Shown in pieces: positions 59,233-60,573 of a stretch of DNA of 64,000 nucleotides (its first letter is position 1; the number at the start of each line of letters is the position of its first letter). Made by a program: the position numbers and the translations under genes. The DNA is from Chryseobacterium sp. 7 (GTDB lineage: Bacteria; Bacteroidota; Bacteroidia; Flavobacteriales; Weeksellaceae): contig NZ_RCCA01000001.1 of assembly GCF_003663845.1 (NCBI RefSeq), positions 1,426,001-1,490,000 on the forward strand. Reading direction: 5' to 3'. The notes beneath the pieces were generated by a model. The model saw only the letters and a program-made list of their open reading frames with translations. It made no database searches and had not been told where the DNA came from.

Positions 59233-59544
59233 TTATTTGACCTCTTTCATTTCTTTGATGATATTGGTTTTATTTTCAATACCGATATTATAGATTTTAC
59301 TCTTTTTAAAGCTCTGGTTAGCTTTTTCCAGGAGATTTTTATAATCTGGTGATTTTTTTGAAAGATAAAAAACCTGAGCACTTATTCCAATGGAAACGCG
59401 TACAACCTCGTTCGGTTTGTCCGGATCTTCTGTGATATTTGAAATAGTGGCATTATTATACCATGTTAAATTCTGTGAACTGGAATTACCGGAACAGGAT
59501 GTAATCATAATAAAAAGCAATAATAAATAGGACCAGGCTTTCAT
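59233..59544 (-). CDS. Small lipoprotein resembling the protein-glutaminase prosegment
   Basis: A 103-aa predicted lipoprotein (MKAWSYLLLLFIMITSC, Cys17, lipobox ITSC). By eye, residues 48-100 align with the prosegment of the adjacent protein-glutaminase (its residues 59-110): VRVSIGISAQVFYL against FKVSFMVSAQPYHI, then a helix with Y..LLEKA against Y.SMIKEA, and an NKTNIIK / NSNEIAK end. The shared SAQ is the part of the prosegment that plugs the active site. It lacks any catalytic domain. It may inhibit the enzyme in trans or protect the producing cell. It lies 69 bases downstream of the enzyme gene, after a hairpin. Confidence 0.75.
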   Translation of the reverse strand: MKAWSYLLLLFIMITSCSGNSSSQNLTWYNNATISNITEDPDKPNEVVRVSIGISAQVFYLSKKSPDYKNLLEKANQSFKKSKIYNIGIENKTNIIKEMKEVK

Positions 59545-59563
59545 AGCAAAAAGTATTAAGTAA

Positions 59564-59601
59564 AAAGCTCCTGCAATATAGTAAAATACAGGCAGGAGCT
59601 C
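59564..59601 (-). terminator. Terminator between the protein-glutaminase and the small lipoprotein gene
   Basis: On the minus strand: stem AGCTCCTGC / GCAGGAGCT with a 17-base loop, then TTTTTA. It may be partial, letting some transcription continue into 59544-59233. Confidence 0.7.
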
Positions 59602-59613
59602 TATATAAGTTAA

Positions 59614-60573
59614 TTAAAATCCACAGCTTCCTACGCTAGGTGCAGGAGAAGGAGAGCATCCTGAAAGGGATGAGAATATATTCAATACACAATTGGTATT
59701 TACATAGTTGTTGTCATATAATAAAGATCCGGACGGACTTCTGTAATATACATTTCCTGCAGTATTGGCATAAGAAGATACAGAAGCAGATCCACAGCTT
59801 GTATTGGTACAAGCAGCTCTCCATGCAGCGTCAGTTACAGGTCCGCTGGAGAATAATGAAGGGTCAATGATTCTTTTTTCAACAATTCCGGAAGCATTTT
59901 TGAAGCTTACCAAAATTGCCACGTGATATACCCATGATACACAGCATGTTCCTGTAGAAGCTCTAAGGTTACCATAAACGAACTGTTTTTCACAATCGTA
60001 GCCTGCGTTCAAAAGAATTTGTCTCATTTTGTGAGCTCTTGCATAGCATCCATCCACAGGATATCTGAAAGTAATACACGGTGAAGATGCCGTAGAAGTT
60101 CCGCAAGCCTGGTTTTTGATTTGAGTAAATAAGCTGTTCAGAGTTGCAAGATTTGGAATAACGCTTACGGCTTTTTTGCTGTCACCTCTTTCTTCTTTGT
60201 TAAATACAGATTTGAAATAACGGATGTCATCAGCAGTTGCTTTGTCTACCTTTGCAATCTCATTAGAGTTAGCTTTCAGGAAAACCTGAACTGGAGTTTC
60301 GTTTTCTACAGCTTCTTTGATCATGGAGATGTATCCTGCATTTTCCTTAGTATCTTTAATATGATACGGCTGAGCAGAAACCATAAAGGAAACTTTAAAC
60401 TTTCCATCCTCTTTTTCTATCCCTACCGGAACAGTTTTACCGAAATCTTTCATAGCAACGTTGTTTGACTCTTTGGCTACGAGATTAGGATCCTGGTTGG
60501 CACTTGAATCCGAACAGGCATTGAATGACAGCATCGTCACGAATACCATCATGGATAACAGAAATTTTTTCAT
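59614..60573 (-). CDS. Protein-glutamine glutaminase precursor (protein deamidase)
   Basis: A 319-aa preproenzyme. Signal region about 1-20 (ending FNAC), prosegment about 21-134, mature enzyme about 135-319 (185 aa, the known mature length of the C. proteolyticum enzyme). Catalytic triad: Cys176 (DGCYARAH), His217 (YHVAILV) and Asp237 (IIDPSLF); in mature numbering these are 42, 83 and 103, agreeing with the known enzyme. Several Cys pairs would form disulfides. It converts glutamine side chains in folded proteins to glutamate, releasing ammonia, outside the cell. The prosegment, with SAQ at 66-68, keeps it inactive until proteolysis. Confidence 0.95.
   Translation of the reverse strand: MKKFLLSMMVFVTMLSFNACSDSSANQDPNLVAKESNNVAMKDFGKTVPVGIEKEDGKFKVSFMVSAQPYHIKDTKENAGYISMIKEAVENETPVQVFLKANSNEIAKVDKATADDIRYFKSVFNKEERGDSKKAVSVIPNLATLNSLFTQIKNQACGTSTASSPCITFRYPVDGCYARAHKMRQILLNAGYDCEKQFVYGNLRASTGTCCVSWVYHVAILVSFKNASGIVEKRIIDPSLFSSGPVTDAAWRAACTNTSCGSASVSSYANTAGNVYYRSPSGSLLYDNNYVNTNCVLNIFSSLSGCSPSPAPSVGSCGF

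Follow-up and report, generated by a model that had tools for sequence, protein, structure and literature searches.

A lipoprotein encoded beside a Chryseobacterium protein-glutaminase matches the enzyme's prosegment in predicted fold and is a candidate trans inhibitor

Protein-glutaminase (PG) serves industry as a food enzyme, and the open literature says little about its role in nature or how it is controlled. A 64,000-nucleotide stretch of Chryseobacterium sp. 7 (contig NZ_RCCA01000001.1, positions 1,426,001 to 1,490,000; the window) encodes a PG precursor of 319 aa and, directly downstream, a lipoprotein of 103 aa, which raises the question of what a small lipoprotein does beside a secreted deamidase. 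An original prediction made from the window's letters held that the lipoprotein is a paralogue of the PG prosegment without the catalytic domain and might inhibit the enzyme in trans. Its coordinates and residue numbers were exact for both open reading frames (ORFs) and for both segments compared, lipoprotein residues 48-61 (VRVSIGISAQVFYL) and precursor residues 59-72 (FKVSFMVSAQPYHI). As judged by its predicted structure, the lipoprotein is a stand-alone paralogue of the PG prosegment with the same fold.

The predicted fold settles this kinship because, among all PDB chains, it best matches pro-PG. AlphaFold2, run on an alignment of 49 lipoproteins with no PG sequence in the input, returned a model with a pLDDT of 88.9 and a pTM of 0.77. 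A Foldseek search of this model against 350,542 PDB chains gave pro-PG as the top three matches, and in VIA-align 3a56_B ranked first (Z 11.7), with 3a54_A at Z 11.4 (1.5 Å over ~75 residues). The match was restricted to residues 19-93 of the pro-PG prosegment. Next came AB5 toxin B subunits, which are unrelated OB folds, at Z 9.7 and about 2.5 Å, and the prosegment of another PG (8z3i) reached Z 9.6 at rank 7. Pro-PG was probably in the AlphaFold training set, which limits the independence of the lipoprotein model. The original prediction had named a fold unlike the prosegment as one outcome that would speak against it; structure prediction instead placed pro-PG at rank 1. Domain searches likewise bore out the absence of the PG catalytic domain (Cys-His-Asp), as the protein ends after the OB-like domain.

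In sequence, the lipoprotein and the PG prosegment are about 17-20% identical. Aligning 50 lipoproteins with 55 prosegments in hhalign yielded one alignment, in the register proposed originally, with a probability of 28% and E = 6e-4; with the signal peptide removed the probability was 19%, and E-values across runs ranged from 6e-4 to 1e-3. None of 400 column shuffles reached the real score (23.6; shuffled mean 11.8, standard deviation 2.5, maximum 20.3). Column shuffles alone served as the null, since circular rotations keep the matching segment and hence provide none. When the 50 lipoproteins were compared with 18,950 NCBIfam models, NF040782 came first, matching 41/50 (best E = 6e-4) with scores far below its curated cut-off; the second model by members matched, MG095 lipoprotein, reached 21/50. 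The predicted fold, the shuffles and the NF040782 matches together uphold the claim of a prosegment paralogue.

The features of the locus, in window coordinates, are:

59233..59544, minus strand: 103-aa lipoprotein, predicted stand-alone PG-prosegment paralogue with an OB-like fold (strands, one helix, strands), based on ORF, family, fold and the ratio of nonsynonymous to synonymous substitution rates (dN/dS)
59353..59400, minus strand: lipoprotein residues 49-64, RVSIGISAQVFYLSKK, putative counterpart of the active-site plug by conservation; position 56 is Ala, Pro or Gln and Gln57 is invariant
59494..59496, minus strand: lipobox Cys17 (MITS-C-SG), at least 98% conserved in 92 homologues
59560..59602, minus strand: terminator-like hairpin and U tract between the PG and lipoprotein genes, based on covariation and folding energy
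59614..60573, minus strand: PG precursor, 319 aa (NF040782; PF18626 catalytic domain), based on family and structure matches
59617..60171, minus strand: mature PG, 185 aa, based on alignment to 3a56/3a54 and the mature N-terminus
60172..60513, minus strand: precursor prosegment, residues 21-134, based on alignment to 3a56/3a54 and the mature N-terminus AVSVIPNL
60373..60375, minus strand: precursor Ala67, equal to prosegment Ala47 by residue numbering; the A47Q mutant is PDB 3a54
60514..60516, minus strand: precursor Cys20 of the signal peptide in a lipobox-like context (FNAC-SD), based on C-x-[DE] conservation

The PG precursor, whose ORF position was confirmed, is covered from end to end by NF040782 (E = 7e-143), and its residues 22-319 align to the solved proenzymes 3a56 and 3a54. 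The mature N-terminus AVSVIPNL was determined for C. cucumeris PG (PMC9396377). The lipoprotein gene starts 69 nt past the PG stop codon, and 6 nt beyond its own stop lies the end of a convergent SDR gene.

In the alignment, the active-site plug surrounding prosegment Ala47 falls on IGIS[A/P/Q]QxFY, the most conserved stretch of the lipoprotein; this Ala is precursor residue 67 and becomes residue 47 when numbering begins at residue 21. Within lipoprotein residues 49-64, 10/16 positions are at least 98% conserved, compared with 13/70 elsewhere (Fisher p = 9e-4). The likeness that had been noticed at the substrate-position segment holds in the same register, with the plug as the peak of conservation. 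Gln57, the equivalent of prosegment Gln48, is invariant (92/92 homologues); the Ala47-equivalent at position 56 is Ala in 60, Pro in 24 and Gln in 8 (L029, L072, L074, L115, L134, L142, L151 and L153), while the cognate PG prosegments have Ala at position 47 without exception. The Gln-bearing lipoproteins naturally carry the same Ala-to-Gln change as the engineered A47Q proenzyme (3a54). In the proenzyme, Ala47 presumably occupies the substrate position. The lipoprotein is under strong purifying selection, with a dN/dS of 0.096 that is comparable to that of the prosegment (0.127); mature PG stands at 0.028.

PG and the lipoprotein are present or absent as a unit. Among 320 family-level genomes, the lipoprotein was found in 101 (the G013 copy being frameshifted) and PF18626 genes in 107. 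In 101/101 genomes the gene immediately upstream of it on the same strand is PG, and not one of the 320 carries the lipoprotein without PG. The co-occurrence in other Chryseobacterium genomes for which the original prediction had suggested a survey was thus near-perfect. Scanning 84,980 species genomes gave 65 loci, 64 recorded as Chryseobacterium and one in a Weeksellaceae metagenome-assembled genome; the characterized PG producer C. cucumeris is among them. Twenty PG-less congeners, which have no lipoprotein either, keep lipB and a nitroreductase gene, the flanks of the pair elsewhere; the spacing of these two genes is within 3 kb in 13/20 and only 130-270 nt in 6. Beside the PF18626 genes of G444, G584 and G596, three genomes that belong to another family in the order, no small lipoprotein was seen. 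Weak matches to L079 and L141 (membrane proteins of 243-247 aa) and to L090/L091 were judged unrelated, as their likeness is limited to the signal region or one helix.

The sorting signals of the two proteins bear on where they might meet. The lipoprotein has a lipobox (MITSC) followed by the pattern C-S-[GS], with no acidic residue nearby, and in essentially all 94 distinct PGs the precursor has a Cys followed by x-[DE]. Acidic residues after the lipid cysteine direct Bacteroidota lipoproteins to the surface (PMC5080379); the single acid of PG is weaker than the published surface-export signals. From its leader, the PG zymogen may itself be a surface lipoprotein, and a surface-directed zymogen with a lipoprotein guard facing the periplasm would fit these signals. 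The PG literature reports an ordinary signal peptide, despite the conserved lipobox-like Cys.

PG and lipoprotein genes are mostly separated by about 70 nt, and in nearly all species this gap holds a conserved terminator-like hairpin, whose 12-pair stem is followed by a U-rich tail. Compensatory changes were found in 11/12 pairs, 94.7% of cells pair and 0/500 shuffles came near; in the window the hairpin folds at −19.9 kcal/mol (z −5.35). It still follows PG in two genomes that lost the lipoprotein (G033 and G049) and, because it is retained there, it is probably PG's own terminator. The lipoprotein would therefore depend on read-through, which suggests that it is made in a lower amount than PG, and such an amount would be more in keeping with a local guard than with a stoichiometric inhibitor of the bulk enzyme.

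With moderate confidence, we favor a role for the lipoprotein as a trans inhibitor that would engage mature PG inside the cell envelope in the binding mode of the prosegment. The prosegment would have been duplicated, and the copy would have lost the helix-and-linker tail leading to the cleavage site and kept the OB-like inhibitory domain. The lipoprotein would dock on mature PG as the cis prosegment does, with the IGIS[A/P/Q]QxFY segment entering the active-site cleft, and would block PG that has matured while still at or inside the envelope. Labor would be divided, with the cis prosegment silencing the zymogen and the lipoprotein silencing stray mature PG beyond cis control, and the membrane-held inhibitor would guard envelope proteins of the producer. 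A read-through fusion of mature PG and lipoprotein, modeled as a stand-in for the complex, reached a mean pLDDT of 57 and a pTM of 0.39, with the PG part poorly folded, and is hence uninformative. A bolder proposal, about which we lean slightly toward doubt, is that the lipoproteins form a lipid-anchored trans-prosegment family dedicated to PG inhibition, the first for a protein deamidase, in which the plug Gln of some species serves as a pseudosubstrate, the cis prosegment always having Ala. A PG inhibitor of this kind would explain how the producer tolerates a deamidase able to alter its own envelope proteins, would offer a means of turning the enzyme off in its production and application, and would carry the propeptide-turned-inhibitor principle from proteases to deamidases.

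Several points weigh against this interpretation. OB folds are common, and an unrelated small OB-fold lipoprotein could adjoin PG and resemble its prosegment by convergence or chance. BLASTP of the lipoprotein against PG as a single pair found no resemblance (E = 3.7), some unrelated ORFs score as high as the prosegments in profile comparison, and a lipoprotein profile searched against PDB sequences did not retrieve pro-PG. A prosegment profile run against the window's own genome recovered PG and, up to E = 10, not the lipoprotein; Pfam assigned the lipoprotein to no family, with an ExbD match at E = 0.028 below the cut-off. Its sequence similarity to the prosegment is weak but non-random, and marginal taken alone. 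The profile-profile comparison proposed originally is accordingly borderline, with the shuffles and the 41/50 matches to NF040782 on one side and the hhalign probabilities of 19-28% and the negative PDB profile search on the other. A chance likeness nevertheless seems highly improbable, as the prosegment tops the 350,542 chains by a clear margin, 0/400 shuffles reached the real score, most members match NF040782, the SAQ register agrees and adjacency to PG is obligate.

Furthermore, lipB and nitroreductase are mostly constant flanks across the lipoprotein/PG loci, and the locus is largely inherited vertically as one, so that the Fisher p of 8e-77 for co-occurrence overstates independence. The lipoprotein gene is decayed in G019, deleted in G033 and G049 and frameshifted in G013 (possibly a sequencing slip), with PG intact. 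Because PG stays intact where the lipoprotein is lost, the latter is not essential in that clade; it is dispensable there at least, which weakens the strict immunity role that had been envisaged. The loss of the gene in one clade would also suit a non-functional duplicate of the prosegment. Such a relic is hardly credible, however, since a dN/dS close to that of the functional prosegment refutes it in most species and the gene is kept across about 100 species.

Prosegments commonly aid folding besides inhibiting, and the lipoprotein could be a folding or export helper of PG in trans, comparable to steric chaperones such as the lipase foldases; a membrane anchor suits a periplasmic helper, as does the obligate pairing with PG. 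We consider this unlikely, though not far-fetched: PG has its own prosegment in cis, intact PG genes persist without the lipoprotein, and Chryseobacterium PG has been made and purified in its active mature form, no such partner being named in the abstract of PMC13298967 or in PMC9396377. A retention or sensing device, which would keep mature PG at the cell surface or, as a pseudosubstrate, report or time the activity of PG, could account for Gln (8/92) and Pro (24/92) where PG prosegments invariably have Ala, and 3a54 carries the same Ala-to-Gln change by engineering. This role is decidedly unlikely in our view, as 84/92 homologues have Ala or Pro, which cannot be deamidated.

Propeptide domains turned free inhibitors are known from I29/CTLA-2 and I9, for other enzymes, with eukaryotic examples and without a lipid anchor. 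The cis PG prosegment (3a56, 3a54, 3a55; NF040782) shares with the lipoprotein the predicted fold, the register, the strand-helix-strand order after the plug, possibly lipid anchoring and, of the S-A-Q-x-[YF] plug itself, the Gln in every homologue and the Ala in 60/92; the lipoprotein differs in having its own gene and neither catalytic domain, C-terminal tail nor cleavage site. The original statement that no system of this kind had been described was too strong in view of SpeB, which is encoded beside the propeptide analogue Spi (PMC2873492), and of the lipoprotein inhibitors of Bacteroides C10 proteases (PMC3462683). In SpeB-Spi, as proposed here, a propeptide-like trans-inhibitor gene adjoins the gene of a secreted cysteine-nucleophile zymogen, and the lipoprotein has both the adjacency to its cognate enzyme (101/101) and the predicted homology to the cognate propeptide. 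Spi is a protease inhibitor thought to act in the cytoplasm on prematurely active protease (PMC3462683), whereas here a lipoprotein and a deamidase are likened to it by architecture rather than sequence. In Bacteroides, the C10 proteases are made as lipoprotein zymogens, and genes next to theirs encode staphostatin-like inhibitors that are often lipoproteins too (PMC2873492; PMC3462683). These inhibitors, Bfi and Bti, are likewise encoded in Bacteroidota by small adjacent genes, several of them for lipoproteins, with a protease zymogen predicted to be a lipoprotein and envelope protection proposed; unlike our candidate, they are explicitly not propeptide-like. By analogy, the PG/lipoprotein pair unites features of SpeB-Spi and the Bacteroides C10 systems around a different reaction. 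A search of open-access full texts, with subscription papers and patents outside its scope, found no description of the lipoprotein gene and no comparable inhibitor system for a protein deamidase. The architecture has precedent and appears new for a deamidase.

The PG/lipoprotein pair is also present in a second genus (G256), where the lipoprotein has an extra C-terminal Ig-like Big_14 domain (L140:6440-7081, minus strand). In G034, PG, lipoprotein and a second PG stand in tandem (L072:3919-6695). In a further, tandem array (L077; G029:C2:200000-219000), the leaders of PG-like and papain-like lipoproteins are near-identical (TSCNQDRD), and several of its PG-like copies, 216-250 aa in length, are without a prosegment.
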